DNA of 64,000 bases, from positions 4,216,001-4,280,000 of the forward strand of contig NZ_JAUSZI010000002.1 in the NCBI RefSeq assembly GCF_030817415.1, written 5' to 3'. The position numbers were made by a program, and so were the translations under genes. How positions within the stretch are numbered: the stretch's first letter is position 1; each line of letters opens with the position of its first letter. Below, piece by piece: positions 42,443-58,990 of the stretch. Below the pieces are notes generated by a model, which did not search any database, was not told the DNA's origin, and was given only the letters and a program-made list of their open reading frames with translations. The DNA comes from Streptomyces umbrinus (lineage in GTDB: Bacteria; Actinomycetota; Actinomycetes; Streptomycetales; Streptomycetaceae).

Positions 42443-42738
42443 GGTTCAAATCCAGAGCCTAAGATCCATGAGTGAATCGTGTGATCGGGCAGCAGGACAC
42501 GTGTCATCGCGCGGTCCTCGTACGGAGGCTCGGCCTTTCGGGGTCGCAGTCCTGACCCGACGTGTCGGTTCCGCATCGGAACCTCGCTTGTTTCCCGCCA
42601 TTTCCACCACCGAAACACGCTTTTCGATGTGACTTACGCGACGATGACCAGGCCCGGCCTGACCTACGCGGTCCGGGAGGCGTAGCCTTTATTCCCGCTG
42701 TCCATCACCTTGTGAAGCGGAAGAGGGCGGTTGCCGCC
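42443..42738. other. Leader region upstream of kgd
   Basis: These 296 bp hold no gene I can support. TTGACA (42426) and TTGACG (42434), overlapping the end of the kinase gene, could be -35 elements, but a matching -10 at normal spacing is poor. The long leader may carry regulation not recognised here. Confidence 0.35.
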
Positions 42739-45700
42739 GTGTCGCCACAGTCCCCCAGTAACTCGAGCACCTCGACCGAGGACCAAGCCGGGAAGAACCC
42801 CGCTGCTGCGTTCGGTCCCAATGAGTGGCTCGTCGACGAGATCTATCAGCAGTACCTCCAGGACCCGAATTCGGTAGACCGAGCCTGGTGGGACTTCTTC
42901 GCCGACTACAAGCCGGGCGGCGTCGCCGCCTCGGCCCCGTCGGGTACCGCGGCCGCGGGGGCCGCGGGGACCACCACGGTCGCTCCGGCCGCCCCTGCGG
43001 CGCCCGCGGCTCCGGCCCAGGCCGCTCCGGCCCAGGCCGCACCCGCGGCGCCGAAGCCGGCAGCCGCCGCGCCGGCGAAGCCCGCCGCCGCTGCTCCTGC
43101 CGCGGCTCCGGCGAAGCCCGCCGCGGCCAAGCCGGCCGCGGCGAAGGCCGCGCCCGCGTCGGAGTCCGCCGCGGGTCCGGAGTACGTGACGCTGCGCGGA
43201 CCGAGCGCCGCGGTCGCGAAGAACATGAACGCCTCGCTGGAGCTGCCCACGGCCACGTCCGTGCGCGCCGTCCCGGTGAAGCTGCTCTTCGACAACCGCA
43301 TCGTCATCAACAACCACCTGAAGCGTGCCCGGGGCGGGAAGATCTCCTTCACCCACCTCATCGGCTACGCGATGGTGCAGGCCATCAAGGCCATGCCGTC
43401 GATGAACTACTCGTTCGTCGAGAAGGACGGCAAGCCGACGCTGGTCAAGCCGGAGCACATCAACTTCGGCCTCGCCATCGACCTGGTGAAGCCCAACGGC
43501 GACCGCCAGCTGGTCGTCGCGGGCATCAAGAAGGCCGAGACGCTGAACTTCTTCGAGTTCTGGCAGGCCTACGAGGACATCGTCCGCCGCGCCCGTGACG
43601 GCAAGCTGACGATGGACGACTTCACCGGTGTCACGGTCTCGCTGACCAACCCCGGCGGCCTCGGCACCGTCCACTCGGTCCCGCGTCTGATGCCCGGTCA
43701 GTCGGTCATCATGGGCGTCGGCTCGATGGACTACCCGGCGGAGTTCCAGGGCACCTCCCAGGACACCCTGAACAAGCTCGGCATCTCGAAGGTCATGACG
43801 CTCACGTCGACCTACGACCACCGGGTGATCCAGGGCGCCGCCTCTGGCGAGTTCCTCCGCATCGTCGCGAACTACCTCCTCGGCGAGAACGGCTTCTACG
43901 ACGAGATCTTCGAGGCCCTGCGCATTCCGTACGAGCCGGTCCGCTGGCTCAAGGACATCGACGCCTCGCACGACGACGACGTCACGAAGGCCGCGCGTGT
44001 CTTCGAGCTGATCCACTCCTACCGGGTCCGCGGCCACGTCATGGCCGACACCGACCCGCTGGAGTACAAGCAGCGCAAGCACCCCGACCTGGACATCACC
44101 GAGCACGGGCTCACCCTGTGGGACCTGGAGCGCGAGTTCGCCGTCGGCGGCTTCGCCGGCAAGTCGATGATGAAGCTGCGCGACATCCTCGGCGTCCTGC
44201 GCGACTCGTACTGCCGCACCACCGGCGTCGAGTTCATGCACATCCAGGACCCGAAGCAGCGCAAGTGGATCCAGGACCGCATCGAGCGCTCGAACACCAA
44301 GCCGGAGCGCGAGGAGCAGCTGCGCATCCTGCGCCGGCTGAACGCGGCGGAGGCCTTCGAGACCTTCCTGCAGACGAAGTACGTCGGCCAGAAGCGGTTC
44401 TCCCTGGAGGGCGGCGAGTCCGTCATCCCGCTGCTCGACGCGGTGCTCGACAGCGCGGCGGAGTCCCGTCTCGACGAGGTCGTCATCGGCATGGCCCACC
44501 GCGGCCGCCTGAACGTGCTGGCGAACATCGTCGGCAAGTCGTACGCGCAGATCTTCCGCGAGTTCGAGGGCAACCTCGACCCGAAGTCGATGCACGGCTC
44601 CGGCGACGTGAAGTACCACCTGGGCGCCGAGGGCGTGTTCACCGGTCTGGACGGCGAGCAGATCAAGGTCTCGCTGGCCGCCAACCCCTCGCACCTGGAG
44701 GCGGTCGACCCGGTCCTGGAGGGTGTCGTCCGCGCCAAGCAGGACGTCATCAACAAGGGCGGCACGGACTTCACGGTCCTGCCGGTGGCCCTGCACGGCG
44801 ACGCGGCCTTCGCGGGCCAGGGCGTGGTCGCGGAGACCCTGAACATGTCGCAGCTACGGGGCTACCGCACCGGCGGCACGGTCCACGTGGTCATCAACAA
44901 CCAGGTCGGTTTCACGGCGGCGCCCGAGTCCTCGCGCTCCTCCATGTACTCGACCGACGTGGCCCGCATGATCGAGGCCCCGATCTTCCACGTGAACGGC
45001 GACGACCCGGAGGCCGTGGTCCGCGTCGCGCGGCTGGCCTTCGAGTTCCGCCAGGCGTTCAACAAGGACGTGGTGATCGACCTCATCTGCTACCGCCGCC
45101 GCGGTCACAACGAGTCGGACAACCCGGCCTTCACCCAGCCCCTGATGTACGACCTGATCGACAAGAAGCGCTCGGTGCGCAAGCTCTACACCGAGTCGCT
45201 CATCGGTCGCGGCGACATCACGCTGGAAGAGGCCGAGCAGGCCCTGCAGGACTACCAGGGCCAGCTGGAGAAGGTCTTCACGGAGGTCCGCGAGGCGACC
45301 AACACGCCGGCCGAGGCCCATGTCCCGGACGCGCAGCCCGAGTTCCCGGTGACCGTCACCACGGCGGTCTCCCAGGAGGTCGTCAAGCGCATCGCCGAGT
45401 CCCAGGTCAACATCCCCGAGCGCGTCACCGTCCACCCGCGTCTGCTGCCCCAGCTGCAGCGCCGCGCGGCCATGGTCGAGGACGGCACGATCGACTGGGG
45501 CATGGGCGAGACGCTGGCCATCGGCTCCCTGCTCCTTGAGGGCACCCCGGTGCGCCTCTCGGGCCAGGACTCCCGCCGCGGCACGTTCGGCCAGCGCCAC
45601 GCGGTGCTGATCGACCGGGAGACGGGCGAGGACTTCACCCCGCTCCAGTACATGTCCGAGGACCAGGCCCGTTACAACATCTACGACTCGCTCCTGAGCG

Positions 45701-46539
45701 AGTACGCGGCGATGGGCTTCGAGTACGGCTACTCGCTCGCGAGGCCCGAGTCCCTGGTCATGTGGGAGGCGCAGTTCGGCGACTTCGTCAACGGCGCCCA
45801 GACGGTCGTGGACGAGTTCATCTCGTCGGCGGAGCAGAAGTGGGGCCAGACGTCCGGCGTCACGCTCCTGCTCCCCCACGGCTACGAGGGCCAGGGCCCG
45901 GACCACTCGTCCGCGCGTCCCGAGCGCTTCCTCCAGATCTGCGCGCAGAACAACATGACGGTCGCGATGCCGACCCTCCCGTCGAACTACTTCCACCTCC
46001 TGCGGTGGCAGGTGCACAACCCGCACCACAAGCCGCTGGTGGTCTTCACCCCGAAGTCGATGCTCCGCCTCAAGGCGGCCGCGTCGAAGGCGGAGGAGTT
46101 CACGACGGGCGGCTTCCGTCCGGTCATCGGCGACGCGTCCGTGGACCCGTCCGCCGTCCGCAAGGTCGTCTTCACCGCGGGCAAGGTCTACTACGACCTC
46201 GACGCGGAGCGCACCAAGCGCGGCTCGACGGACACGGCCATCATCCGCATCGAGCGCCTGTACCCGCTCCCGGGTGCCGAGCTCCAGGCGGAGATCGCCA
46301 AGTACCCGAACGCCGAGAAGTACCTGTGGGCCCAGGAGGAGCCGGCGAACCAGGGTGCCTGGCCGTTCATCGCCCTCAACCTGATCGACCACCTGGACCT
46401 GGCGGTCGGCGCGGACGTTCCTCACGGGGAGCGGCTGCGGCGGATCTCCCGTCCGGCGTCCTCTTCACCGGCGGTCGGCTCGGCGAAGCGGCACCAGGCT
46501 GAGCAGGAGCAGTTGGTTCGGGAGGTGTTCGAGGCCTAG
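42739..46539 (+). CDS. kgd: Multifunctional 2-oxoglutarate dehydrogenase/decarboxylase (Kgd)
   Basis: A 1266-residue actinobacterial fusion of E1o and an E2-like acyltransferase for the oxidative step of the TCA cycle. Residues 1-50 carry the E1o N-terminal motif [18 protein letters not shown]. An Ala/Pro linker follows without a lipoyl domain. The E2 catalytic domain ends [18 protein letters not shown]. The ThDP-dependent E1 region contains [25 protein letters not shown], and [11 protein letters not shown]. Lipoyl groups must come from another E2, as in mycobacteria. GTG at 42739 ([10 protein letters not shown]) is the chosen start; GTG at 42712 is possible. A 21-bp-stem terminator follows. 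Confidence 0.96.
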
Positions 46540-46559
46540 GCCTCGTCCCACGGCATGTG

Positions 46560-46604
46560 AAAGGGGTCGGCCCCGAGTCCTCAGGACTCGGGGCCGACCC
46601 CTTT
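46560..46604. terminator. 21-bp perfect stem terminator, bidirectional
   Basis: A 21-base arm (AAAGGGGTCGGCCCCGAGTC plus C, 46560-46580) pairs perfectly with 46584-46604 around a TCA loop. AAA and TTT at its edges make it functional in both directions, ending kgd and the convergent conflict locus. Confidence 0.92.
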
Positions 46605-46616
46605 CGTACGTCCCGT

Positions 46617-49600
46617 CTAGCCCAGGTAGGGCTCGAAGTCCCAGTAGGGCCGGGTGCGCTGGCGGGCCGAGATGGTGTGCGGGTGCTGGGCGCCCAGGGT
46701 GCGGGTGAGGGAGAGAAGGCCGTCCTCCTCCAGCTTCCCGGCCTCCTCCTGCTCCCGGGCCGCACGCAGGTCCGCGGAGAGGGCCACCTGGCAGGAGAGG
46801 GTGAGCGGGTGCTCCTCCCCCAGCGAGTGCCGGGCGCGGCGGAGGGTGTCGCGGCTCAGTTCGACGGCGTCCGAGATACGGCCGTTGAAGTTGCGCGCGC
46901 TCGCGGCGTTCAGCGCACAGCCCAGCACCCAGGGGTGGTCGGGGCCGAGCGTGGCGGTGAGACCGGCCATCGCGGACTCGAACATCGACATGGCTTCGGC
47001 GCGTTCGCCGGCGGCCTGCATGACCAGGCCGGTGTTGGTGAGCATGCCGGTCGCGACGGGGTGCGCGGGGCCGAGGAGGGCCCGGTAGCCGGCTTCCGCC
47101 TCCGCGATCAGATCGCGTGCCTGGCTCAGGTCGCCGTGCTCCCGCAGGAAGTTGCCGTAGTTCGTGAGGAAGGACAGCGTGCGGTAGTGCTCCCGGCCGT
47201 GCAGCTGGCCCAGCTGTTCCAGGAGACTGGCCATGGAGGGCCCCACGTCCTGTGTGTAACCGCCCTCGCGACGGCGGCACAGGGCCAGCTGGACGCGTGC
47301 CTCCAGGGTCTGCGGATGCAGTGGACCGAGCACCTGCACATGGAGCCTGACGACCGGCTCCTGGCGGGACAGCGCGTCGCGGTAGCGCCCGAGGAGACGC
47401 AGGTCGTGAACGACCGCGCTGCCCGAGTTGAGCGTGCTGATGTGCCGGGCGCGGAGCACGCTCTCCCGCAGCGAGAGCGTCTCCAGGTCCAGTTCGTACG
47501 CCTCCGCGTAGCGGCCGAGGAGACGCAGGCCGACGCCGAGGTTGTGCCGGGCGATCAGGGTGGCGGTCTCGTTCGGGCCGAGCAGGCGGTCGTTGCCGAC
47601 GAGGACCTCCTGCTGCAAGGTGTGCGCCTCCTCGTACCGGCCGAGGTGGAGCAGGCTGTTGGCCATGGCTGCCTTGGTGCGCAGCTCGCCCTGCTCCTGG
47701 CGCTGTGGGGCGGCCCGCAGCCTCTCGAGAACGCCGTTGTCGAGTTCGTACGCGTCCCGGAACCGGCCGCTGGCCCGCAGGATGTTGCTCTCCTGGGTGG
47801 TGAGGTCGAGCATGGGCCGGGCGAGCGGCTCCAGATTCCGGGACCAGCGGTCGCGGATCTGCTGCGCGAGTTCCAGGCCGCCCTTGTACTCGCCGCTGCG
47901 GAAGCAGTACCGCAGGCAGTTCAGGACCGCCCCCTGGACCCGTGCCCGGGTGCTGTCCAGCGCGCCGGAGGGTTCCAGGTGCGGGAGCAGTTCGGCGTAT
48001 CGAGGCCAGTTCCTGGTGTCCACGGGGTTACCGGGGTCGGCCTCGGCGAGGAGGCTGCGGACCGCCTTGCGGTGGGTGGCGCGGCTCTCCTCGCTGGTCA
48101 GCTTGGAGACGATGTCGTGGACGAGACGGTGCATGTGCACGGACTCCTGGTGCGGGCCCATCTCCGCGCCCGCTGGTCCGCGGGTCTCGCGGGTGAGCAC
48201 CGAGTAGTTGACCAGCGTGTCCAGGGCCCGGGTCCAAGCGGGCAGGTCGCTGGACATCCACCGCAGCTCCTCGGGGAGTTCCGCCTGCGGATAGGCACGG
48301 ATGAGGCCGAGCGGGATGCGTCCGGGTGCGAAGGACGTACTCAGGCTGAGGACGTCGATGGCCTGCGGCTGCGAGCGCCGGAGCCGGTTGAGCAGTATCG
48401 ACCAGGACGTCATGGACGACTGGGGGAAGCCCTCGCCCGTGGTGGGTTCGTCGACGGTCGTGAGCTTGCGCTCGCGCACCATACGCAGGTACTCGGGGGC
48501 CTCCATTCCCGACTCACCGAGCCAGGACGCGGCCTGGACGAGCGGCAGGGGTACGTCGCCGAACTCGACAGCGACCTCGTCGGCCTGGTCCGCGGTGATG
48601 TGTGGGGCTCGGCGCATCAGATAGGCGGTGGACTCCGCGCGCAGGAAGGCGGGGATCTCCAGGACCTCCGTGTGCTCGCTCCAGCCGCGGTTTCGGGAGG
48701 TGACCAGGACGTGTCCCGGGCCCTGCGGGAGCAGTACGTCGATGCCTTCGGTGTCGTCCCAGCCGTCGAAGATCAGCAGCCAGCGGGAGTGCGGGTCCCC
48801 GCGGCGCAGGGCGTCCCGCACGGCTCGGATACGCTCGCCCGGCTCACTGCCGCTGCGCAGATCCAGTTCCACGGCGAGTTCGCCGAAGCGGTCACGCTGG
48901 ATGTTGCGGTCGTCGGAGTTGATCCACCACACCATGTCGTAGTCGGGGCTGAAGCGGTGTGCGTACTCGGCGGCGAGCTGGGTCTTGCCGATGCCGGACA
49001 TGCCGAGCAGGGTGCAGGCGGCGGCGCCCTGCTCGGCGTCGGAAAGACGCTGGTGGAGGTCGGTGAGCAGGTCGTCGCGGCCGGTGAACCTCGGGTTGCG
49101 GCGCGGGATCTCGCCCCAGATCTCGGCGCGCGTCTCGGGGTAGCGGAGTTGGGTGGGGAGTGTCCTCGGGGTGCGGCGGCGCTCCAGGCCGAGCCTGCTC
49201 AGCAGGCGTTCCTCCGCCCCCTCCTCGCTCAGGCCCCACAGACTGGCCGGTTCGAGGACCGCGGTGGCCGGGAGCAGCGGCCGGTTGGTGAGGTTGACGG
49301 CGGCGAAGCGGTCGGCGTGCGCTGCGACGAAACCGCGCAGGGCGTCGTTCCACTCACCTGCGGGGCGCGGACCGAGTTCGAAGAACCAGTCGTTGAGGAC
49401 GAGGAGTACACGCCCGCTCGACAGCAGGAGGTCGCCGAGCGAGTCCTCCAGCGAGACCTCGCGGGGCGGGTCCCAGCGCTGCTGGGTGGCGCGGTGACCG
49501 TGCCGCTCCAGGCACTGGGCGATCCATGCCGCCCACGAACGGTGGTATCCGGGGAAGACCACGAGGAAATGCTCGGGTGCCGCCGCAGTGTCACGGCCCG

Positions 49601-49619
49601 TCCCCCGTTGTTCCGCCAT
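46617..49619 (-). CDS. FxSxx-system-type TPR protein: TIR-like, NB-ARC ATPase, TPR
   Basis: A 1000-residue signalling protein. Residues ~15-130 look like a TIR-type domain (HFLVVFPGYHRSWAAWIAQCL). RRNPRFTGRDDLL leads into an NB-ARC/STAND ATPase with P-loop GMSGIGKTQLA (K212), VWWINSDD and LLIFDGWDD (Walker B). The last ~450 residues are tetratricopeptide repeats of the Kinesin-light-chain kind (ATLIARHNLGVGLRLLGRYAEAYEL). This combination is the NCBI family of FxSxx-COOH system TPR proteins (FxsT) and of bacterial STAND immune receptors. It would bind NTP, oligomerise and signal. It is the last gene of the locus; the ATG at 49619 is used. Confidence 0.9.
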   Translation of the reverse strand: MAEQRGTGRDTAAAPEHFLVVFPGYHRSWAAWIAQCLERHGHRATQQRWDPPREVSLEDSLGDLLLSSGRVLLVLNDWFFELGPRPAGEWNDALRGFVAAHADRFAAVNLTNRPLLPATAVLEPASLWGLSEEGAEERLLSRLGLERRRTPRTLPTQLRYPETRAEIWGEIPRRNPRFTGRDDLLTDLHQRLSDAEQGAAACTLLGMSGIGKTQLAAEYAHRFSPDYDMVWWINSDDRNIQRDRFGELAVELDLRSGSEPGERIRAVRDALRRGDPHSRWLLIFDGWDDTEGIDVLLPQGPGHVLVTSRNRGWSEHTEVLEIPAFLRAESTAYLMRRAPHITADQADEVAVEFGDVPLPLVQAASWLGESGMEAPEYLRMVRERKLTTVDEPTTGEGFPQSSMTSWSILLNRLRRSQPQAIDVLSLSTSFAPGRIPLGLIRAYPQAELPEELRWMSSDLPAWTRALDTLVNYSVLTRETRGPAGAEMGPHQESVHMHRLVHDIVSKLTSEESRATHRKAVRSLLAEADPGNPVDTRNWPRYAELLPHLEPSGALDSTRARVQGAVLNCLRYCFRSGEYKGGLELAQQIRDRWSRNLEPLARPMLDLTTQESNILRASGRFRDAYELDNGVLERLRAAPQRQEQGELRTKAAMANSLLHLGRYEEAHTLQQEVLVGNDRLLGPNETATLIARHNLGVGLRLLGRYAEAYELDLETLSLRESVLRARHISTLNSGSAVVHDLRLLGRYRDALSRQEPVVRLHVQVLGPLHPQTLEARVQLALCRRREGGYTQDVGPSMASLLEQLGQLHGREHYRTLSFLTNYGNFLREHGDLSQARDLIAEAEAGYRALLGPAHPVATGMLTNTGLVMQAAGERAEAMSMFESAMAGLTATLGPDHPWVLGCALNAASARNFNGRISDAVELSRDTLRRARHSLGEEHPLTLSCQVALSADLRAAREQEEAGKLEEDGLLSLTRTLGAQHPHTISARQRTRPYWDFEPYLG

Positions 49620-49712
49620 CACACGCTCCCTGCTCCCACGTCCGTCACACCTGCCCGCCGGATGCGAACGCTCATCCGCCCGCACACGACGCAACTGATC
49701 TTGCACCCAGTG

Positions 49713-51005
49713 TCACCCAGGATTTCGGGTCGCCACGCCGAGACTCTCGTGGTGCCTGCTCATTTCCTGGACGAACTCCCTTCCAGCAAAGGTAAGTTCA
49801 TCGGATTCGAGGAGAATGGACAAGGCTTCCCCGACCTGTTCCCGATACGTCTCGAACCGCTGTGTGGCCTTGTGTCGCCAGGCCTCGGGAGTGGCGGGCC
49901 CGGCCCGTGCCCGCCACCAGAGATCGGTGAGCGCCAGATGCGCGTACGCACCTTGGAGCACGCCCGAAAGGGGGCGCGGGTCGCGCCGCCACGCCACTCG
50001 GTGCAGGGTCCCACCGCTCGGTCGGTACAGGGGCTCGAACTCATGCAGGGCGGCCAGCTTGGTGTGGTGGGACTCGTGCACCAGGGACTCCGCCAGCTCC
50101 CTCGCGTCGGCGGGCAGTTGGGACAGCACGGCGCCCGGAGCGGACCGGAGGGTGGCGCTCATCGTGGTGCCTCCGTCGCCCACCAGCGGCATGAGCGGCA
50201 CCACGGCGCGCAGCACCACGCCCGTCTCCGCCCCGCGCCCGGCGTCAGTCGCCGACAGGAGCGCCTGCGCCTCACTCCACGACCGGGCCCACAGCCGATG
50301 GGCGGAGTGCGGGCGCCGGGCCGCCGCCAGGGCCTTGGGACCGATCCCCCGGGGCGGCACCCGGTAGGGGTCGAGGTCGTCGAGGACGACCGTGCTGCCG
50401 GGCAGGGTGCGCAGGGCGGCCCAGCCGGTCCCGCTGCCGACCGGACGCCGTGTGCCGGGCTCCGCCCGGGCCAAGGGGCGGCTCAGCACCACATCGCTCG
50501 CGCCCGCGCCGTCCGTGAGGCGTACCAGTCCTGCCCCGCCGCTCAGCCGGACGCTGCCTGACGGACAGTACAGCGCGCCGAGTCCGGGCAGCACCAAGGA
50601 GCCCGACGGCTGGGTGAGCGTGCCGTCGACCTGGCAGCCCGCGCGGACGGCGGCGGCGACGGCCACGCCGCCCAGGTGCGCCAGGTGTCTCTCGAAGGCA
50701 GGGCCTTCGGCCGCCGCGAGCGTCTCGGTGAGCCACGCCCCGGTCATCGGGTAGTCGACGACGTCACGGACGGCGGCGGGGTCCGTCCGCTCCGCCCGCT
50801 CCAGCAGTATCCAGTCCCGCTCGAAGCGCCGGCGCGCCTCGGGGGCCAGCCGGGCCCGGCGCTGTTCGACCAGGACAAGGAGGGATTTGAGAAGCAGCAG
50901 GCGACGCGCGTGGAGTACGGCACGCAGTGCCGCGGTGACCGCCGGGTGGGGCCGGGTCCGCGCGAGTTCCGTGAAGACCTCCAAGGGGACGGCGGCCAGG
51001 GTCAT
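49713..51005 (-). CDS. HExxH-motif peptide hydroxylase/maturase (aKG-HExxH type)
   Basis: A 430-residue protein with H310-E311-x-x-H314 in LVHESHHTKL, the metal-binding motif of the aKG-HExxH peptide beta-hydroxylase family found in RiPP clusters and as the C-terminal domain of FxsB. The rest is helical (RRLLLLKSLLVLVEQRRARL) with a central beta-rich segment. No radical-SAM CxxxCxxC motif is present, so the maturase is stand-alone. The start ATG overlaps the stop of an 82-residue peptide gene (ATGA at 51002-51005), indicating tight translational coupling. It probably modifies that peptide (inferred). Confidence 0.83.
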   Translation of the reverse strand: MTLAAVPLEVFTELARTRPHPAVTAALRAVLHARRLLLLKSLLVLVEQRRARLAPEARRRFERDWILLERAERTDPAAVRDVVDYPMTGAWLTETLAAAEGPAFERHLAHLGGVAVAAAVRAGCQVDGTLTQPSGSLVLPGLGALYCPSGSVRLSGGAGLVRLTDGAGASDVVLSRPLARAEPGTRRPVGSGTGWAALRTLPGSTVVLDDLDPYRVPPRGIGPKALAAARRPHSAHRLWARSWSEAQALLSATDAGRGAETGVVLRAVVPLMPLVGDGGTTMSATLRSAPGAVLSQLPADARELAESLVHESHHTKLAALHEFEPLYRPSGGTLHRVAWRRDPRPLSGVLQGAYAHLALTDLWWRARAGPATPEAWRHKATQRFETYREQVGEALSILLESDELTFAGREFVQEMSRHHESLGVATRNPG

Positions 51006-51250
51006 CCCTGGCCTTCCTCGCTCGGTAAGCCGCCAGTGACCGGAAACGTTCGCTGGCCGCCTTCGCTGCCCACGTACCAGATCTGCCCGAACTCGCGGGA
51101 ACTCTTCAGCACTTGATCGACAGCCGCGACGAGCCCCGGATCATCCATGGCACGCAATGTCCGCAGGTCGACGTCGGTGAGGTCGGGCAGGGCCACCGTC
51201 CGTCCGGTGTCCCGGCCAGGGTCGGCCGCCCGATTCCTCTGCTCCCCCAC
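51002..51250 (-). CDS. Small peptide, FxSxx/RiPP-precursor-like
   Basis: An 82-residue protein starting at GTG 51250, with GGGAGGAG 6 bases upstream. The middle LPDLTDVDLRTLRAMDDPGL and VAAVDQVLKSSREF resembles the leader of FxSxx-COOH peptides (a pattern LPxLxxVDLxxLxxxxDPxL). The tail QIWYVGSEGGQRTFPVTGG contains aromatic residues but does not end in FxSxx. It is coupled to the HExxH gene by a 4-base overlap. Together these suggest a peptide substrate for that enzyme. It could equally be a small accessory protein. Family assignment is from memory of the pattern, not from a search. Confidence 0.55.
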   Translation of the reverse strand: MGEQRNRAADPGRDTGRTVALPDLTDVDLRTLRAMDDPGLVAAVDQVLKSSREFGQIWYVGSEGGQRTFPVTGGLPSEEGQG

Positions 51251-51340
51251 CCTCGGCTCCTCCCTGCCGACGCCCGCCCCGCACGGCCGCAACGGCTGCC
51301 CAGTTCTTCCCGACGCGTGGGAATCAGAAACCCTTACCGA

Positions 51341-54300
51341 TCAACTCCGGTCATGCGCCGCGTGGTTGAGCCGCTCCTCGGACCAGGGGTACCAGGGCGG
51401 CGAGGCGCGGCTCCACTCGTCGTCCGGCAGTGGTCGCCGCCCGCTCGGCGGGGCCGTCTGCGCGGCGAGTTCCTCCGCCGCTCCGCGGGTCGACTCGACG
51501 TCGTCCCAGTCGACTTCGGTGAGCGCACCGACGAGCCGCTGCCACTGGTCGCGGGCCGCCCGGTAGGCCTCGCCGGCCGCGGCGGGGCGTCCCATGAGGG
51601 CGAGGACCGCGGCGCGGCCGTGCAGCGCGCGGGCGGCCGTCACCGAGCCGGGGTCGTCGCCGTGGGCCCGCCGGGCCTCGCGCTCCGCGGCCTCGTACGC
51701 CTGGAGCGCGTCGGCCAGGACGGGCGCCCCGGCGCGGTGCCACAGTTCGAGGCGCACCCGGCCCAACTGGAGCCAGGACTCGGCCTGTACGCCGTCGGAG
51801 ACGGCAGCCCGGACCGCCTGGCCCAGCAGATGCCGGCTCTCGTACAGGTCCGGCAGGAAGCCCAGATGCCGGAACCGTTGTGCGAGCGCGCTCCCGATGA
51901 GTCCCTGGAGTCTGCCTCGCTGGGCGGACCGGGCGGGCAGGGCCTTGAGTGCCTCGCGCAGGACGTTCTCGGCGCGGTCGACGATGCCGGCGCCGTCCGG
52001 ACGGGAGGCGCGCCGGAGCAGTGACTCGCCCCAGGCGGTGAGGAGTTCGCAGCGCCGGACACTGTCCGGCGGGGCGAGCATGGCAGCCGTCTCGTACGCC
52101 TCGTCGGCCGCCGGGTGGTCGCCCGCGGCGTCGTGGAAGGCGGCCCGGGCGGCGAGGCAGGACAGGCGCAGGGCCGGGTCGTCGGCCGCGGCGCGTTCGG
52201 CGCGTACGAGGGCGTCGTGCGCCTCGGATCCGTCGGCCCCGGAGGCGTGCAGGGCGCGGGCGAGATCCAGCAGGGCCGGTCCGCGTACGGCGTCGGGGGC
52301 GCCCTCGCTGTCCAACAGGGCGCATCCTTCGCGGAGTTCGGGGACCGCCTCGCCGGGCCGGTCCAGGTCGAGCAGCAGGCGTCCGCGGCGCAGCAGCCGC
52401 GCCCGGCGCAGGGGTGCGGGCCAGTGGGCGTCCGGGTCCGACGGGACGCCGAGGACGTCGAGTGCAGCGGTGAGGTGTGCGGTGTCCGCGGTGAGGCGCC
52501 ACAACTCGTGGCGGGACGCGGCGAGTTCCAGTGCGGCCTCGCTGCGGTGGGTGCTGCCGGCCGGTGCCGTGCGGTGGGCGCGGGCGAACTCGGCGACGGC
52601 GGCGTTGAGGAGTTCCGCGCGGCGGTCGCCGGTGCGCGCGGCCGCGGTGCCGGCCTCCGCCCGCAGGACGCGGCCCAGGAGCACATGGGCGCGTACGGCG
52701 TCGGGGAGGGCGGCGCCGCCCTGGCGTACGGCTGCTTCGGCCTGTTCCTTCGCGCGGCGCAGGACGGTCGGGTCGGCCAGGGCCTGCCACTGGCCGAGGA
52801 GCCGCTCGGCCTCGGCGAGGGGGACGGGCGTCTCCAGGTCGGGCAGGTAGAAGCGCAGGACGCGGGCGGGGATGCGGGCGAACAGCTCGGCCTCGACATC
52901 GCCGCGGTCGTCCTGCTGTCGCTCGCCGTCGGTGACGCCGGTCGCGGTGACGGTCGTGCCGTGGTCGGCGAGCCGGGCGGCGGCGAACGCGGCGAAGTTG
53001 CGGGTGCCCTTGCCGAAGTGGCGTTCCACGTAGGCGGAGCAGTGTTTGAGGACCAGCCCGGCGGTGTCCTGGTCGAGCGAGCTGAGCAGCAGGTCCTGGA
53101 CGCGGCCGGGGTAGACGAAGCAGGGCTGCCGTTCGGTGCCGGGCAGTTGCCTGAGCAGGCCGCCCAGGAGGACTTCGGCCAGTTCCATGGGTCCGGTGTC
53201 GGGGAGCATGGCCCGCTGGACGAGTTGCATGACGGGCAGGGTGAGCGGGGCCGCGGCGAGGTACACGGCCAGGCGGACCGCGCCAGGGGAGGCGCCGGCG
53301 CGGAAGGCGCGCAGGAGTTCGTCGTCGCCGCGTGGGGCGGGCGGCCCTGCGGGCACGTTCTCCGCCGGGGCGGGGGCGGGGGTGGTCCAGGCGGCCCAGG
53401 CCCGTTCGCTGGTGGGGCCGGTGCCGGACAGAAGGCGGGAGAAGGCCTCGAATGCCTCTGGGGTCGGCTGGAGCACCGGCACGGGGCGGGCTCCGGCGGC
53501 CGGCACGTCCCAGGGTTCCTCGTCGGGCAGGAAGGTGGTGCGTCCGCCGGTCTCCGCCTGCCTGACCAGGAGCCCCGGTTCGGCGGGCAGTGCGGTGCGG
53601 CCCCAGAGCCGGGGCGGCAGCGGCTGGACGACGGCGAGCGGCGAGGTGCGGGGCCAGCCGTGCAGGAGCCGCTGTGCGCTGCCGTTCTGCCACAGGGGTC
53701 CCACGCAGTCGCTGATCACGAGGGTGAGCCAGCGACCCGTGGGGTCGTGGAACTCGTCGGCCGAGCGCAGCCGGGTGTGGTGGCGGGGCCCCGCGGTGGT
53801 GCCGATGAGCGGGATGCCGCCGTCGCCCGCGTACAGGTGGTGGACCCGGACGCTGCCGAAGGCCCCGGACTGCTGGCAGGCCTGCCGCAGTTCCTCGACC
53901 AGTTGCCCCCAGACGGCCATCGCGGGGCCGGTGTCCATCAGGAGCTGGATGTCGCAGCGCCGGCGGCGGCCCGGGCGGCGGACGGGCACCAGGACTCCGC
54001 TGGCGGCCGCGTGGTCGGCGGTCGCCTCCTCGTCGATCGCCCCGTCGCGGGGCGGGGCGGCGGGTCCCCGGTAGCGGCCCAGGGCGCGCAGCGCCTGTTC
54101 GAGGCCCAGCAGGCCCGGCAGCGCGGTGGCCGCCGGGGCGCGCACCGGGAAGACCTGCCGGACGCCGTCGGTCCCCGGACCGGCGCCGCCGCCCGCCGTG
54201 TGCAGGGGGACGGCGCCGAGCGAGGTGTCCGTGCCGGGTTCCTGGCCGGTCCCGGGGGTGTGGTCCGCCGGTGGGCGGCTCGCCGGCCCCGTCCCGTTCT

Positions 54301-54475
54301 CCGGCGGGGCGGACGGGTCGGCCGGCCTGCGGTCCCGCTCGGCACGGGGCGGCGCCGGGTCGAGCCACCGGGACAGCCAGACGGCGTCGGCCACCTCTTC
54401 GGCGGTGGGGTCGAGACCGCCCCGGCGCAGCCTGCCGATCAGGTCCTCCAGATGCATCCCGTGCATCCGGCTCAC
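51341..54475 (-). CDS. SAV_2336-type protein with vWA-like and TPR-like regions
   Basis: A 1044-residue protein of the group annotated as SAV_2336 N-terminal domain-related. The N-terminus (HLEDLIGRLRRGGLDPTAEEVADAV) is followed by a Pro/Gly-rich linker of ~60 residues. A domain with LLMDTGPAMAVWGQLVEELRQ follows, reminiscent of a degenerate vWA metal site (DTGPA in place of DxSxS). The C-terminal ~480 residues are helical Ala/Arg/Leu repeats, likely TPR-like. GTG at 54475 overlaps the MoxR stop as GTGA; ATGs at 54466 and 54457 are alternatives. Such proteins occur with MoxR ATPases and trypsin-like proteases in actinobacterial conflict systems. Confidence 0.8.
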   Translation of the reverse strand: MSRMHGMHLEDLIGRLRRGGLDPTAEEVADAVWLSRWLDPAPPRAERDRRPADPSAPPENGTGPASRPPADHTPGTGQEPGTDTSLGAVPLHTAGGGAGPGTDGVRQVFPVRAPAATALPGLLGLEQALRALGRYRGPAAPPRDGAIDEEATADHAAASGVLVPVRRPGRRRRCDIQLLMDTGPAMAVWGQLVEELRQACQQSGAFGSVRVHHLYAGDGGIPLIGTTAGPRHHTRLRSADEFHDPTGRWLTLVISDCVGPLWQNGSAQRLLHGWPRTSPLAVVQPLPPRLWGRTALPAEPGLLVRQAETGGRTTFLPDEEPWDVPAAGARPVPVLQPTPEAFEAFSRLLSGTGPTSERAWAAWTTPAPAPAENVPAGPPAPRGDDELLRAFRAGASPGAVRLAVYLAAAPLTLPVMQLVQRAMLPDTGPMELAEVLLGGLLRQLPGTERQPCFVYPGRVQDLLLSSLDQDTAGLVLKHCSAYVERHFGKGTRNFAAFAAARLADHGTTVTATGVTDGERQQDDRGDVEAELFARIPARVLRFYLPDLETPVPLAEAERLLGQWQALADPTVLRRAKEQAEAAVRQGGAALPDAVRAHVLLGRVLRAEAGTAAARTGDRRAELLNAAVAEFARAHRTAPAGSTHRSEAALELAASRHELWRLTADTAHLTAALDVLGVPSDPDAHWPAPLRRARLLRRGRLLLDLDRPGEAVPELREGCALLDSEGAPDAVRGPALLDLARALHASGADGSEAHDALVRAERAAADDPALRLSCLAARAAFHDAAGDHPAADEAYETAAMLAPPDSVRRCELLTAWGESLLRRASRPDGAGIVDRAENVLREALKALPARSAQRGRLQGLIGSALAQRFRHLGFLPDLYESRHLLGQAVRAAVSDGVQAESWLQLGRVRLELWHRAGAPVLADALQAYEAAEREARRAHGDDPGSVTAARALHGRAAVLALMGRPAAAGEAYRAARDQWQRLVGALTEVDWDDVESTRGAAEELAAQTAPPSGRRPLPDDEWSRASPPWYPWSEERLNHAAHDRS

Positions 54476-55494
54476 CGCGAGCGGTCGAGTGGGTGCATGA
54501 GCAGGTCCGCGATCCGCTCGCGGGTGAGGCGCTCCGCGTGGGGGGCGTGCTGGGTGAGGAAGAGGGCGTTGAGCAGTTGGTCCGCGGCGACGACCTCGCC
54601 GGGCTCCCGGTCGAGGTAGCGGTCGATGAGATCGCGGCCCTGCTCGACGCTCTCGCCGCCGAGGTGTGCCTCGACCATGGCGGTGAGCTGTTCCTCGCCG
54701 GGCGGTTCGAGCTCCAGCTGGATGCAGCGCCGCAGAAGGGGAGCCGGGAAGTCCCGTTCTCCGTTGGACGTCAGGATGATGAGCGGGAAGGCGGTGCAGG
54801 CGACGCGTCCGCCGTGCACGGGCACGCGGCGGCCGTCGTGGGTGAGCACCTCGACGACGGGTTCGCGGTCGGCCACGCGCTCCAGCTCGGGGACGGCGAA
54901 CTCGCCTTCCTCCAGCGTGTTCAGCAGGTCGTTGGGCAGGTCGAGGTCGCTCTTGTCGAGCTCGTCGATCAGCAGGACGCGGGGCACCTCGGCGGGCAGC
55001 AGCGCGGTGCCGAGGGGACCGAGTCGTACGTACGATCCGATGCCGGACGGGGCTGCCGCGGGCGCCGCGGTGGCGCCCTGGGCCCGCTCCAGCTGGACGT
55101 CCTGGAGGCGGCCGATGGCGTCGTAGCGGTACAGGCCGTCCTGGAGTGTGGTGCGGCTGACGACGGGCCAGCGCAGTACGCGGCCGAGGCCCAGCTCGTG
55201 TGCCACCGCGTAGGCGAGGGTGGACTTGCCGGTGCCCGGGTTGCCGGTGACGAGGAGGGGGCGGCGCAGATACAGGGCCGCGTTCACGGCGTCGACCTCG
55301 GCGGGCCGGGGCGCGTAGTTCTCCACGAGGCGCCGTCGTACGCCGAGCCGGCGGGCGCTGCTGGGGTCGTCCGGTCCGGACTCGGGTCGGTCGGGTGCCG
55401 CCGCGAAGTCCCGCCAAGGGGGCGGCGGGGGTAACTGCCGCACACCGTCGTGCGGCTGACCCACCCCGCGGTAGATCCGCCAGTCGTTCACCAT
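54472..55494 (-). CDS. MoxR-type AAA+ ATPase
   Basis: A 340-residue ATPase. Walker A is TGNPGTGKS (K90), Walker B RVLLIDELDKSDLDLPNDLL near residue 175, sensor 1 LIILTSNGERDFPAPLLRRC, and the C-terminal lid follows. The N-terminal 60 residues (including PPPPPWRDF) are variable. MoxR ATPases remodel partner proteins, usually vWA proteins; in VMAP-type conflict systems they control an effector protease. It overlaps the SAV_2336-type gene by 4 bases and lies 154 bp downstream of the protease gene. Confidence 0.93.
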   Translation of the reverse strand: MVNDWRIYRGVGQPHDGVRQLPPPPPWRDFAAAPDRPESGPDDPSSARRLGVRRRLVENYAPRPAEVDAVNAALYLRRPLLVTGNPGTGKSTLAYAVAHELGLGRVLRWPVVSRTTLQDGLYRYDAIGRLQDVQLERAQGATAAPAAAPSGIGSYVRLGPLGTALLPAEVPRVLLIDELDKSDLDLPNDLLNTLEEGEFAVPELERVADREPVVEVLTHDGRRVPVHGGRVACTAFPLIILTSNGERDFPAPLLRRCIQLELEPPGEEQLTAMVEAHLGGESVEQGRDLIDRYLDREPGEVVAADQLLNALFLTQHAPHAERLTRERIADLLMHPLDRSR

Positions 55495-55648
55495 GGGCTC
55501 CTCCCGGCTCTGGTGATCATGCAGCGGGACCCGGCTGTTCGATGTACGACGTTACCGCCGGTGCGCCGGGCCTGCCGAGCTTCCTGTTCGTCCGGTATCG
55601 AATCCGGTCAGCGAACATCCGTGCGAGGCAAGGGAGTTGGGAGTCGAT

Positions 55649-57718
55649 TCACGTGTCGGGGGCTGCCATGAGGGGCGGTTGCATGGGTTCCGTTCCGTGC
55701 GGCGGACGATCCGGCGGATCGAACAGTACAGCGATGTCGCCCACGAGACCCTCCGCCGTGTCGGGATCCGACACCCGGATCCTGAGCTCGCGCACCTGCC
55801 GGTGCAGACCCTCGGCCCCGCCCGCCAGACCCAGCAACTGCCCGGCCTGCGAGTGGAACCCGCGGCACTCCTCATGGTCGTGGCCGTCCCTGCGCCACAG
55901 GACCAGAGGATGCCCGGCGGCGAGCGCGGCCGCCATCGCGTCGAGGCCGGGACCGCTGCCGACCGGACCGCAGTGGACGGGAACGCACGCCTCGTCCATG
56001 CCCGAGAGCCGGCCGTACGCCGCCATCCTGCCCTCCGGGCGTCCCGCCTCCGGGTGCCCCTGAGCCGTCGCCTCACCCCTCAGCGGCCCGGCGGACAGCG
56101 GCCGGCTCGCCACGCCCGCCCATCTGCGGCGCCATTCGGGGCTGGCCGGCCGGGCGTTGCGCCGGCGGTCTCGAATGACGACGACCCTGCGCAGTCCGAG
56201 CGGCATGGACTGTTCGTCGAAGAGATCGGCGTCGTCCCAGGCGTCGTCGGCGCTGAGCCGCCAGTCGTCGAGCGGTACGTCGAACAGCCGGCGCGGCAGG
56301 AAGGCCTCGACCGCGGCCAGGTGTTCGCCGCGGTCGCCCAGGCGCAGGGCCTCCGCCAGCGGCTCCCTCAGGTACTGGTGCAGTTCGTCGCGGCGCACGC
56401 CGTGGTCGTTGCTGTAGAGCGGGGTGACGTCCTGGCCGTCGTAGAGGAGCTTGACGCTCAGGGGATACCGCTCTCCGTAGACGGGCTCCCCGACGTCGAC
56501 GAGGACGTCGGCCCGGGCGCGGGACGCTGTCCGGGCCGGAGCGGCGACGGTCGCCGGTGTCCGGAGGGTCTCCTCGGACAGGCGGTCCAGGAGGGCGTCG
56601 ATGTCCTCGCGGATGGCCTGGCGCGCGTAGAGGGTCGCCTGCTCGGTGATCCAGGCGGTGAAGTCGCGCAGCCGGTCGCGGTCCACGTCGGCGGGGTGGT
56701 CGAGGGCGGTGTGCCTGGCCACCTTGGCCGCGTACAACAGGACGGCGTCGAGGGCGAGTTCGGGTCTGCCGCCGTGGTCGCCCGGGTCCCGCAGGCCGTG
56801 CAGGAGTCCGGCGCCCTCGCGCCAGGTGCGCGGGTCGTGCTCGATGGGCGAGCGGTAGTCCTCCTGCACCACACGGGACTTGACCTCGTGGACGAGGTGC
56901 ATGACCTCGCCCGGGCCGCCGGGCGGCGGGAGATGGGCGAAGTGGCCGTAGAGACGCACACGCAGTACCGGGGCGAGACCGTGGGCACCGGGACCGCGCA
57001 GCCGGGTCTGGGTCCTGGTCCAGTCCGCGCCCGCCGCCGGGTCGTTGAAGCGGTCGAGGTGATGGAGGTCGTGCTCCCCCATGACGGTGTGCAGGATCTC
57101 GCCGCCCCGCACGTCGTACAGCTCGCGCAGCGCGGTGATGGGGACGGCGGCCCCCTCGTGCCGGCCGCGCCCCTTGTTCATGCCGATGACGGCGCCGTGC
57201 CGCAGGTCGACCACGGGCCCGCCCGAGACTCCCTCGACCGGCGTCTGGCCGGTGAGGAGCAGCGCCTTGCCGTCCAGGGCCGACGCCTCTCCGATGCCGT
57301 GCCGCATACCGAGGTCGCCGGTCTGCCGTGACCAGCCGTGCAGACTGACCGGGGCGGGGATGGTCGGCTCCCGGTCGCTCAGCCAGACGCACGGCGCGTC
57401 GTCCGCGCCCCGCACCCTGACGAGCGCGATGTCCGGGAACCGCCAGCTGCCGCGGGCCCCGTCGGGCTCCTCGGGCCGCGGTTTGGCGAGCACCACCTCG
57501 CCGGTGGTCTTGCCGCCCTGCCAGGTCACGCCGACGGCGTTGCCACTTCGCCACACGGCCGCTCCCCCCTTTCCCACGACATGGGCGCAGGTCAGCAGCC
57601 AGCCGGGTGCTATGAAGAAACCGCTGCCCCAGTACTCCTCACGGTCCGGTGCATACCCGTCGCCCGGTGCCACGATGCGCGCGAGCGAGGGGCGCACCAT
57701 CTCCTCAAGGGCGCTCAT
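55649..57718 (-). CDS. Trypsin-like protease with VMAP-like C-terminal region
   Basis: A 689-residue cytoplasmic protein (no signal peptide). The N-terminal ~200 residues are a trypsin-like serine protease with all three catalytic residues: H46 in LLTCAHVVG, D96 in FPDIALVRV and S165 in GVSGGPVVDL. A ~490-residue region follows with DILHHLDRFND-like and LVLWRRDGHDHEECRGFHS stretches, similar to the VMAP C-terminal region of conflict systems. That part would recognise the trigger or partners. The ATG at 57718 overlaps the preceding small gene by 4 bases (ATGA). Confidence 0.85.
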   Translation of the reverse strand: MSALEEMVRPSLARIVAPGDGYAPDREEYWGSGFFIAPGWLLTCAHVVGKGGAAVWRSGNAVGVTWQGGKTTGEVVLAKPRPEEPDGARGSWRFPDIALVRVRGADDAPCVWLSDREPTIPAPVSLHGWSRQTGDLGMRHGIGEASALDGKALLLTGQTPVEGVSGGPVVDLRHGAVIGMNKGRGRHEGAAVPITALRELYDVRGGEILHTVMGEHDLHHLDRFNDPAAGADWTRTQTRLRGPGAHGLAPVLRVRLYGHFAHLPPPGGPGEVMHLVHEVKSRVVQEDYRSPIEHDPRTWREGAGLLHGLRDPGDHGGRPELALDAVLLYAAKVARHTALDHPADVDRDRLRDFTAWITEQATLYARQAIREDIDALLDRLSEETLRTPATVAAPARTASRARADVLVDVGEPVYGERYPLSVKLLYDGQDVTPLYSNDHGVRRDELHQYLREPLAEALRLGDRGEHLAAVEAFLPRRLFDVPLDDWRLSADDAWDDADLFDEQSMPLGLRRVVVIRDRRRNARPASPEWRRRWAGVASRPLSAGPLRGEATAQGHPEAGRPEGRMAAYGRLSGMDEACVPVHCGPVGSGPGLDAMAAALAAGHPLVLWRRDGHDHEECRGFHSQAGQLLGLAGGAEGLHRQVRELRIRVSDPDTAEGLVGDIAVLFDPPDRPPHGTEPMQPPLMAAPDT

Positions 57719-58125
57719 CCGGTGCCGGAGGCCGAGGGTCCGGGCTGCCCGTCGCCGCCGTCTCCCTGCCCCGCACCCGCCGCGCCCGCCTGCCCCGCGG
57801 GCTCGGTCCAGGTCAGGGACACGGAAAGGGAAGCCTGGCCACCGCCTCCCGCGATGGCCCCTACGATCCTGCCTGCCTGCGCCGACAGTTCGATGCCGAA
57901 GCTCACGGCCACCTCGACGGGCGCCGGGGTGTCCAGACCGGCGCGCAGGGAGCGCACGACGCCACCGACCGCGTCGGCCAGTCCGCCCGCCATGTCGACG
58001 ATCCGGTCCCCGACCCCGGTGTCCTGATATCCGTCCCCGTCCAGCGCGGCCTCGTCCGCCGCACTGACCCTCGCCCATACGACGGTCCCGTCGTCGAGCC
58101 GTATCCGTTCGATCCCTCCACCCAC
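57715..58125 (-). CDS. CU044_2847/Trypco1-like small protein
   Basis: A 136-residue protein starting at GTG 58125 (VGGGIERIRLDDGTVVWARV). It contains VEVAVSFGIELSAQAGRIVG and a terminal SLSVSLTWTEP, the pattern of the CU044_2847 (Trypco1) family, whose genes typically precede trypsin-like proteases. These small domains are proposed to be partners or inhibitors of the protease. The C-terminus is Gly/Ala-rich and disordered. It is the first gene of the conflict locus and its stop overlaps the protease start. Confidence 0.8.
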   Translation of the reverse strand: MGGGIERIRLDDGTVVWARVSAADEAALDGDGYQDTGVGDRIVDMAGGLADAVGGVVRSLRAGLDTPAPVEVAVSFGIELSAQAGRIVGAIAGGGGQASLSVSLTWTEPAGQAGAAGAGQGDGGDGQPGPSASGTG

Positions 58126-58340
58126 GGCGCCCCCGTCCGTTCGCTGCCGGTTTCCCTCTGCCAGCTGTGAAGCTCCCCCTACCGCAGGGGAGGAGAAGGC
58201 TAACTCCCGACCTGGGACATGTGCGAGGGGCACCTGCGCGAGGGGCACCTGTCGGTGGCGGCTCCCGGAGACCGGATCCGGCGGGCAGTACATAGGCTGT
58301 GAGCGGAAACGGAACACGGACGCACGCAGGAGAACACCCC
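58126..58340. promoter_or_regulatory. Divergent promoter region of the conflict locus
   Basis: These 215 bp separate the conflict locus from the DUF6104 gene. A direct repeat of TGCGAGGGGCACC / TGCGCGAGGGGCACC lies near 58219-58247. A possible -10 (TACATA at about 58289) points toward the DUF6104 gene. I cannot define the conflict-locus promoter. Confidence 0.4.
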
Positions 58341-58520
58341 ATGTACTTCACCGACCGCGGCATCGAGGAACTGGAGAAGCGGCGCGGCCAGGAAGAGGTC
58401 ACCTTCGAGTGGCTCGCCGAGCAGCTGCGTACGTTCGTCGACCTCAACCCGGACTTCGAGGTCCCGGTCGAGCGCCTGGCAACCTGGCTGGCACGACTGG
58501 ACGACGAGGACGAGGAGTAG
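58341..58520 (+). CDS. DUF6104-family small protein
   Basis: A 59-residue acidic protein of a family almost confined to Streptomyces and relatives. The whole sequence MYFTDRGIEELEKRRGQEEV and later LAEQLRTFVDLNPDFEVPVE matches the DUF6104 pattern as I remember it. Length and the terminal acidic cluster DDEDEE are normal. GCAGGAG precedes the ATG. It is predicted helical and cytoplasmic, with unknown function. It is transcribed divergently from the conflict locus. Confidence 0.85.
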   Translation: MYFTDRGIEELEKRRGQEEVTFEWLAEQLRTFVDLNPDFEVPVERLATWLARLDDEDEE

Positions 58521-58550
58521 GCGGCAGGCCCGGGGCTCCGGTCCACGGCT

Positions 58551-58658
58551 GCGGGCACCTGGCGGGTGCGGGCGGGTGCGGGCACCTGGCGGGTGCGGGC
58601 GGGTGCGGGCACCTGGCGGGTGCGGGCGGGTGCGGGCACCTGGCGGGTGCGGGCGGGT
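58551..58658. repeat. 27-bp tandem repeat, four copies
   Basis: Units begin at 58551, 58578, 58605 and 58632, each starting GCGGGCACCTGGCGGGTGCG. The copies are identical. The fifth position degenerates at 58659. Period 27 is a multiple of three, but no supported gene covers it. Confidence 0.92.
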
Positions 58659-58726
58659 GCGGGCTGCGCCCGGCTTCGCCGGGCGTGACCGCTCGGCACG
58701 GTCGGCTTCCATCCGGGCTGACGTCC

Positions 58727-58862
58727 GGCTGGCGGGCTGGCGGGCTGGCGGGCTGGCGGGCTGGCGGGCTGGCGGGCTGGCGGGCTGGCGGGCTGGCGGG
58801 CTGGCGGGCTGGCGGGCTGGCGGGCTGGCGGGCTGGCGGGCTGGCGGGCTGGCGGGCTGGCG
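58727..58862. repeat. 8-bp tandem repeat, seventeen copies
   Basis: GGCTGGCG repeats 17 times without interruption over 136 bp. Read on either strand it gives an Ala/Gly/Trp/Arg or Ala/Pro/Gln/Ser repeat in every frame, so the long reading frames here are artefacts of the microsatellite. Confidence 0.95.
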
Positions 58863-58880
58863 GGCCAGTTCAACGTCTGC

Positions 58881-58990
58881 GGCGGGTCCGCTCAACCTTC
58901 CCAGCGGGCTCGATCAGCCATCCCGGCGGGCTCGCTCAGCCTTTCTGGCGGGCTCGCTCAGCCTTTCTGGCGAAGCCGCCCGCCCTCTCC
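58881..58990. repeat. 22-bp degenerate tandem repeat, five copies
   Basis: Units with a 22-bp period begin at 58881, 58903, 58925, 58947 and 58969. The third and fourth are identical (GGCGGGCTCGCTCAGCCTTT plus CT); the others differ at several positions. Confidence 0.85.

Follow-up and report, generated by a model that had tools for sequence, protein, structure and literature searches.

In the VMAP-ternary conflict systems described by Kaur et al. (2020; PMC7159879), genes for VMAP, MoxR and a vWA (von Willebrand factor A) component follow one another, and a trypsin is accompanied by Trypco1. Those with an FxSxx-type peptide arm have a vWA protein carrying tetratricopeptide repeats (TPRs) only, a separate downstream TIR-AP-ATPase-TPR gene, an HExxH gene and a small leader peptide, and a radical SAM gene accompanies the FxSxx peptides. 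Sensor and effector roles are assigned differently in PMC7159879 and PMC10907252, the vWA side being disputed as effector or sensor, and the modified peptide of VMAP/FxSxx systems may be a toxin, a signal or a guarded ligand. Here we describe a seven-gene locus in a stretch of 64,000 nucleotides (the window) from the 12.4 Mb genome of Streptomyces umbrinus (contig NZ_JAUSZI010000002.1, positions 4,216,001 to 4,280,000). The locus is a VMAP-ternary conflict system (Trypco1; trypsin-VMAP-C; MoxR; SAV_2336/vWA-TPR) joined to a peptide arm of the FxSxx-COOH type, a combination that is already published (PMC7159879). What is new is that both hallmarks of that arm are absent from the locus: the peptide has no FxSxx tail, and there is no gene for FxsB, the cyclophane-forming radical SAM enzyme.

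The seven consecutive genes, g1 to g7, lie on the minus strand from window position 58125 down to 46617:

57715..58125, minus strand: g1, Trypco1 (trypsin-co-occurring domain 1; CU044_2847 family), 136 amino acids (aa), GTG start; PF19493 59.2 bits, NF041216 51.2 bits
55649..57718, minus strand: g2, trypsin-like protease fused to VMAP-C, 689 aa; Trypsin_2 PF13365 53.4 bits, PF20028 129.3 bits
54472..55494, minus strand: g3, MoxR AAA+ ATPase, 340 aa; AAA_5 32 bits
51341..54475, minus strand: g4, SAV_2336 N-terminal (vWA-like) domain followed by TPRs, at most 1044 aa; NF041121 SAV_2336_NTERM 419.7 bits, TPR_12 weak
53921..53935, minus strand: degenerate metal-ion-dependent adhesion site (MIDAS) of the predicted g4 vWA domain, DTGPA, residues 181-185 counted from GTG 54475
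51002..51250, minus strand: g5, leader peptide gene, 82 aa; TIGR04268 positions 1-29 of 44, 23.7 bits
49713..51005, minus strand: g6, stand-alone aKG-HExxH-type peptide beta-hydroxylase, 430 aa; TIGR04267 144.2 bits
50064..50078, minus strand: HExxH motif of g6, HESHH, residues 310-314
46617..49619, minus strand: g7, TIR / NB-ARC (AP-ATPase) / TPR STAND protein, 1000 aa; TIR_2 43.5, NB-ARC 33.1, TPR_10 106.4 and NF040586 780 bits

The gene calls and profile matches confirmed the seven one-strand genes and the modules that an initial annotation of this DNA had named. Codon-position guanine-plus-cytosine content, computed for g1, g3, g5, g6 and g7, supported the right frame in each, and g2 and g4 are taken as genes on the basis of their profile matches. 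The closest protein relatives came from the S. phaeochromogenes / S. liliifuscus / S. umbrinus group.

The locus agreed closely with the published VMAP-ternary anatomy. The VMAP-C match of g2 was far above the PF20028 cut-off of 27 bits, the trypsin was accompanied by Trypco1, and the order VMAP, MoxR, vWA component was found in the window and in all 39 of the window-like (type A, defined below) loci whose contigs reach that far. The N-terminal motifs WxhapG and PsWRxa, given for VMAP-ternary MoxR proteins in section 9 of PMC7159879, were present in g3 as WRIYRG and PPWRDF. A predicted vWA protein with TPRs only, the HExxH gene, the small leader peptide and the separate downstream TIR-AP-ATPase-TPR gene were also present. 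This agreement, including the MoxR motifs, indicates that the arrangement is no chance combination. The window differed from the systems of PMC7159879 in having no radical SAM gene, no FxSxx-ending precursor and, in its place, a variable tail centred on Trp; moreover, its predicted vWA domain and those of most close relatives carry DxGxA in place of DxSxS. None of the peptide types in section 24 of that paper (FxSxx, RxD, acidic, FtsH-associated) fits the window peptide. Compared with the FxSxx-COOH/FxsB system as defined by TIGR04268, TIGR04269 and NF040586, the STAND-TPR protein scored far over the NF040586 cut-off and g5 matched the leader part of TIGR04268, whereas that match was below the cut-off and TIGR04269 was absent from the locus. 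The DGR (diversity-generating retroelement)-diversified VMAP systems of PMC10907252 share MoxR, trypsin-VMAP, Trypco1 and the predicted vWA component, but their vWA proteins carry CLec sensor domains, where the window has a peptide arm and a STAND-TPR protein. No radical-SAM-free system of the FxSxx type was found in the open PMC literature, nor any description there of such a form with a Trp-centred peptide and a degenerate vWA metal site; the source data of PMC7159879 may list an example of type A unremarked. The initial annotation had assigned the genes to one system among the NTP-dependent conflict systems of actinobacteria, which their co-occurrence across relatives supports: the neighbourhood comparison that it proposed found the homologues together, the reverse of a scattered distribution. 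Its view that a peptide-modifying arm had been added here does not hold, since the arm is the FxSxx-type module already described with VMAP-ternary systems (PMC7159879). The order of action that it proposed, a sensor ATPase activating a protease effector, would correspond to one of the two published, proposed orders.

To define the distribution of this form, 79 loci from a hydroxylase profile search (best 80 of 104) were compared. Type A comprised 44 loci without a radical SAM gene, and type B comprised 14 loci with a separate FxsB gene between peptide and hydroxylase; in both, the VMAP side was present or cut by a contig end. The other 21 had no directly adjoining VMAP side, with the radical SAM gene fused, separate or not found, or ran into contig ends (L042, L061, L063, L064 and L074 being cut in this way). 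Two of these 21 (L056 and L076) had MoxR and SAV_2336 about 6 kb away. All 44 type A loci were from Streptomyces and were exactly the loci in the type A clade of the hydroxylase tree. Peptide, SAV_2336 and STAND-TPR genes adjoined the hydroxylase in 44/44 loci of that clade (L042, which is cut, was left out), and VMAP and MoxR were present in 39/39 whose contigs extend that far. No CxxxCxxC frame of at least 200 residues was found between SAV_2336 and the hydroxylase in type A loci; those listed in L014, L015, L022 and L047 fall within other genes.

The same separation was seen at the level of genomes. A type A-level hydroxylase (336-729 bits; next best score 291) was present in 19 of 121 Streptomyces genomes, and SAV_2336 lay about 2-2.5 kb upstream of it in 17 of these (of the remaining two, G016 lies at the edge of its contig, and no location was listed for the SAV_2336 match in G108). 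FxsB was found at E <= 1e-50 in 79 of the 121 genomes. It lay directly upstream of the hydroxylase in all 18 assessable genomes with a hydroxylase of 207-291 bits (type B level; G059, the nineteenth, is truncated where its contig stops and was left out), and adjoined none of the 19 type A hydroxylases. Five of the 19 genomes encode FxsB elsewhere or on another contig, the copy of G031 carrying an internal stop, and 14, among them the genome of the window, had none at E <= 1e-50. The window's genome had no TIGR04269 match above the cut-off, only a single partial match of 30 bits. FxsB was thus absent from 14/19 type A genomes versus 28/102 others (Fisher p 0.0003, uncorrected for kinship). Among 150 Streptomycetaceae genomes of 17 genera, five scores exceeded 336 bits, all in Streptomyces, and other genera reached at most 295. 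The hydroxylase tree had 75 rows, among which the 44 type A loci grouped with the window in one clade (SH-aLRT, the SH-like approximate likelihood ratio test, 99) within FxsB-bearing rows, its nearest neighbour being the single type B row L049 (support 92, not starred); the tree was made by a quick method without bootstrap and has long branches at L037, L038, L040, L045, L049 and L053. The simplest reading of a single clade nested in FxsB-bearing relatives is one loss, and FxsB was probably lost once. Among the loci compared, the hydroxylase and SAV_2336 genes of L045 (S. eurocidicus) were each broken over two frames, VMAP was split in L014 and L018 and the TPR gene in L041, and the TPR frame of L033 was short; these are either sequencing errors or broken copies.

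The hydroxylase itself has been kept intact. g6 scored far above the TIGR04267 aKG-HExxH cut-off of 40 bits with its HExxH motif intact, and its relatives in the PDB were 22nu (E 1e-37) and ChlH (8s5f, E 1e-15), with which it shares HExxH and the WRxDxRP element. H310, E311, H314 and the W339-R340-x-D342-x-R344 element were kept in 44/44 type A and 14/14 type B proteins. The pooled dN/dS (ratio of nonsynonymous to synonymous substitution rates) was 0.31 in type A (42 close pairs) compared with 0.27 in type B (6 pairs). Because the active-site residues are kept and the two ratios are so close, selection on the hydroxylase is not relaxed after the loss of FxsB. Related HExxH enzymes depend on Fe and 2-oxoglutarate and modify peptides that bear a leader, their listed targets being His, Asp, Phe, Gln and Pro (PMC12636437, PMC13060819). 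g6 resembles ChlH, PflC/PosC and PesO, enzymes of ribosomally synthesized and post-translationally modified peptides, in its family profile and predicted leader-bearing substrate; it differs from them in lying within a predicted immune locus and in having no radical SAM partner there. A mobile-element origin of the locus was considered and rejected: the hydroxylase matched just four plasmid records (29-34% identity) and none from phages, and integrases were not searched.

The peptide retained its leader but not an FxSxx end. The TIGR04268 match of g5 was under the cut-off of 28 bits. g5 had 31 homologues, and a leader-bearing frame preceded the hydroxylase in 44/44 type A and 14/14 type B loci, the individual type B matches being weak (6.5-25 bits). 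The type A and type B peptide sets were homologous (hhalign probability 95, E 3.7e-8; best E of 40 column-shuffled controls, 0.045), and in this alignment Trp58 of type A falls on the Trp of the LW(G/A)-aromatic core of type B. The type B cores showed an aromatic-x-Ser/Asn pattern. None of the 45 type A peptides (the window and 44 relatives) had an FxSxx C-terminal end. Leader residues 21-49 were conserved (dN/dS 0.32), while the rest of the peptide gave 0.70 and the N-terminal extension 0.92 (61 pairs). Trp58 (codon 51077-51079) was nearly invariant in type A (44 of 45; L053 has Tyr), and Phe69 was common to the longer tails (25 of 45 rows; 16 rows gapped there). Positive selection on the tail is not claimed, the pooled ratio being 0.70. 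g5 and g6 are presumably translationally coupled.

The metal site of the predicted vWA domain also differed between the two types. All 13 readable type B SAV_2336 proteins had the MIDAS pattern DxSxS. In crown type A, Gly replaced the first Ser in 37/37 readable rows and Ala stood last in 33 of them (DxGxA), whereas the early-branching L037, L038, L040 and L053 retain DxSxS or DxSxT; the site was unreadable in three type A rows (L003, L024, L045). The second metal Asp, D256 in the window, was kept, and both Asp residues persist wherever readable among relatives. VWA_CoxE matched 9 of 25 relatives weakly and not the window copy. Since early-branching type A loci still have DxSxS or DxSxT, the metal-site change seems to have followed the loss of FxsB and the change of the core. 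On this order of events alone, the domain may once have bound the cyclised peptide through the MIDAS metal. The genome of the window encodes only one SAV_2336-type protein at E <= 1e-50, and several other Streptomyces have 3-5.

The catalytic triad of g2 (H46/D96/S165) was kept in 38/38 readable type A and 13/13 type B proteins, and in g3 residues W5, G10, W27 and R28, Walker A K90 and Walker B D177/E178 were kept in 39/39 and 13/13, respectively. The TIR domain of g7 was modelled with a mean pLDDT (predicted local distance difference test) of 85.9, and its top-ranked PDB matches were TIR domains, one at E <= 0.001. The catalytic Glu of TIR NADases, which we take to lie 4 residues past the conserved Trp, could not be proven to have an equivalent position in g7; at the position so assumed, Leu was found in 43/43 readable type A and 14/14 type B proteins. 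Because the triad is intact and there is no other obvious effector, given a TIR domain without Glu at that unproven position, the trypsin is favoured as the candidate effector.

The best overall explanation, which we hold with even confidence, is that g6 would hydroxylate a linear leader peptide, the presumed ligand of the STAND/vWA machinery gating the trypsin effector. Docked on g6 through its leader, g5 would be beta-hydroxylated on its linear tail in a reaction with Fe(II), O2 and 2-oxoglutarate, most likely at Trp58 or a neighbouring residue. With or without this modification, the peptide might then be the ligand for the TPRs of g7 or for the vWA-TPR protein g4, and the STAND protein would be kept off or armed depending on the state of the peptide. 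Infection or another insult would lead to STAND assembly and MoxR-driven remodelling of g4, thereby releasing the g2 trypsin with Trypco1 as adaptor, and the cell would be killed or arrested. In crown type A, recognition would probably no longer involve a MIDAS-metal contact, because the vWA metal site is degenerate. Retention of the hydroxylase-only form suggests that cyclophane formation is dispensable for keeping the system. A more specific version is very unlikely in our view: a single beta-hydroxylated residue, possibly beta-hydroxytryptophan, would be a self-mark on the linear ribosomal peptide read by the TIR/NB-ARC/TPR STAND protein, and attack would be sensed through the loss of the oxygen-, iron- and 2-oxoglutarate-dependent marking. 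Reading of the marked residue alone would leave the tail free to vary, and dismantling of the vWA metal site would have followed the disappearance of the cyclised ligand.

Several points weigh against the best overall explanation. Trp is not among the aKG-HExxH targets given in the accessible parts of PMC12636437 and PMC13060819, and ChlH requires a preinstalled cyclophane, as cited in PMC12636437, so that hydroxylation may have ceased once FxsB was gone. Even in type B the peptides are only FxSxx-like, with a strict FxSxx end in 1 of 14, and the weak constraint after the leader suits a spacer as well as a core. Binding of the peptide to the TPRs is a step that we infer. The structure model of g4 was of low confidence, with the vWA fold not confirmed and no vWA match listed. 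PADLOC gave weak generic matches to g2 and g3 and no specific one.

Other explanations were weighed against the same data. g6 might cut the peptide rather than hydroxylate it, hydrolytically in the zincin role proposed in 2020 or oxidatively, freeing the tail as a toxin or signal. Section 24 of PMC7159879 describes the HExxH protein as a metallopeptidase releasing a peptide from the C-terminus, and the HExxH enzyme PflC performs both oxidative and hydrolytic backbone cleavage (PMC12636437). We nevertheless consider cutting unlikely: the profile and the solved relatives of g6 are of the aKG-HExxH kind, sharing WRxDxRP, and the tail has no conserved cleavage motif besides Trp58 and, in longer tails, Phe69. 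Alternatively, g5 could be a small adaptor protein and not a precursor, its leader an interaction helix for g4 or g7, with the hydroxylase modifying another protein of the system. A leader that is the most conserved part of a peptide with a nearly free tail would suit this, as would the correlation of 0.93 between hydroxylase and STAND-TPR distances (36 loci), but kgd, a gene outside the system described below, also correlates with them at 0.84 and 0.91. The homology to FxSxx precursors, by the sub-cut-off profile match and by hhalign, and the frame-checked 4-base overlap of the peptide gene with the hydroxylase start in 25/43 type A loci make an adaptor quite unlikely.

Decay of the peptide arm, with FxsB gone, the peptide without a product and g5 and g6 left as relics, is very unlikely in our judgement. 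It would account for the lack of any FxSxx end, the loosely constrained tail, the hydroxylase of L045 split over two frames and the shrinking of the median distance from the SAV_2336 stop to the hydroxylase from 1655 to 413 bases. Relics would not be expected to keep every active-site residue in 44/44 proteins at a dN/dS close to that of FxsB-bearing relatives, nor a leader at 0.32 and Trp in 44/45 peptides, and type A is retained in 19 of the 121 genomes. Continued cyclisation of the peptide by an FxsB from another place in the genome is hardly credible. Such a gene is present in 5/19 type A genomes, one with an internal stop (G031), and 14/19, including that of the window, have none at E <= 1e-50; in addition, 0/45 peptides end in FxSxx.

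The locus occupies a defined chromosomal slot, bordered as follows:

42562..46539, plus strand: kgd, multifunctional 2-oxoglutarate decarboxylase/dehydrogenase, outside the system and convergent with g7; NF008907 2113 bits
60065..62348, plus strand: DUF4097/LiaG-like gene, then PadR regulator, the other slot border

kgd adjoined 43/44 type A and 10/14 type B loci. In the one type A locus without it, L033, the TPR gene is shortened and the following 7.9 kb contain no kgd; among the type B exceptions, L049 runs into a contig end, and the 6.7-6.8 kb following L048, L054 and L058 contain none. On the far side, DUF4097/LiaG and PadR genes were found in many loci. The slot was then surveyed in 20 Streptomyces genomes chosen because no hydroxylase of type A or type B level was present. 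In 16 of these, the DUF4097-PadR pair lay near kgd with no system gene between. Three (L085, L090, L094) had a third form at the slot, with FxsB, no HExxH hydroxylase gene and peptides ending in YEDAP; it consisted of Trypco1, VMAP, MoxR, SAV_2336, small peptide, radical SAM and TPR genes. In L093, a distant HExxH gene directly adjoined kgd, and the DUF4097/PadR pair lay about 12 kb off in opposite orientation.

On the kgd tree, the type A/type B label needs 6 changes, 4 of them forced by starred branches, and alternative forms thus appear to have been swapped at one slot. In 36 type A loci, the distances of the five large parts correlated with those of kgd at Spearman 0.82-0.91 and with one another at 0.83-0.95. 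Such presence/absence and swapping of alleles are in keeping with a conflict system; the locus may instead have a housekeeping role. A link between kgd and the hydroxylase through 2-oxoglutarate was set aside, the system being absent from the slot in 16/20 hydroxylase-lacking genomes and other hydroxylase-free forms occupying the same slot. One Streptomyces slot can therefore hold both peptide enzymes, the radical SAM enzyme only, the hydroxylase only or no such system, a series that separates the two chemistries and makes each testable in related strains. The simplest of these forms, with one peptide, one enzyme and no iron-sulphur maturase, is the hydroxylase-only one, and the type A branch offers a clean setting in which to learn what the small modified peptide does.

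Fewer gene junctions overlapped than the four of six, by 4 bases each, counted in the initial annotation: two are firm and three are the most that can be reached. The firm ones are g1-g2 (57715-57718) and g5-g6 (51002-51005), both ATGA. g3-g4 overlaps (54472-54475, GTGA) only if g4 starts at GTG 54475; the alternative ATG 54466 lies 5 bases past the g3 stop and corresponds to the start of most relatives, in which g4 begins at an ATG 7 bases downstream of that stop. The remaining three junctions are gaps of 154, 90-91 (depending on the peptide start chosen) and 93 bases. In frame-checked relatives, the g1-g2 overlap was found in 31/38 type A and 7/7 type B loci and the g3-g4 overlap in 0/39 and 0/13.

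Scanning the window for tRNAs and for Rfam families at the gathering threshold gave no matches, and a scan limited to the sigma-70 consensus found no minus-strand promoter-like or terminator-like sites in 46400-60100. A DUF6104 gene (58299-58520, plus strand; PF19599 124.5 bits) diverges from the Trypco1 gene. Past this small gene, upstream of Trypco1, lie three tandem arrays: a perfect array of the octamer GGCTGGCG at 58727-58865 (17.4 copies, 100% match) and two more at 58546-58664 (period 27) and 58880-58972 (period 22). These arrays are likely to be length-variable.

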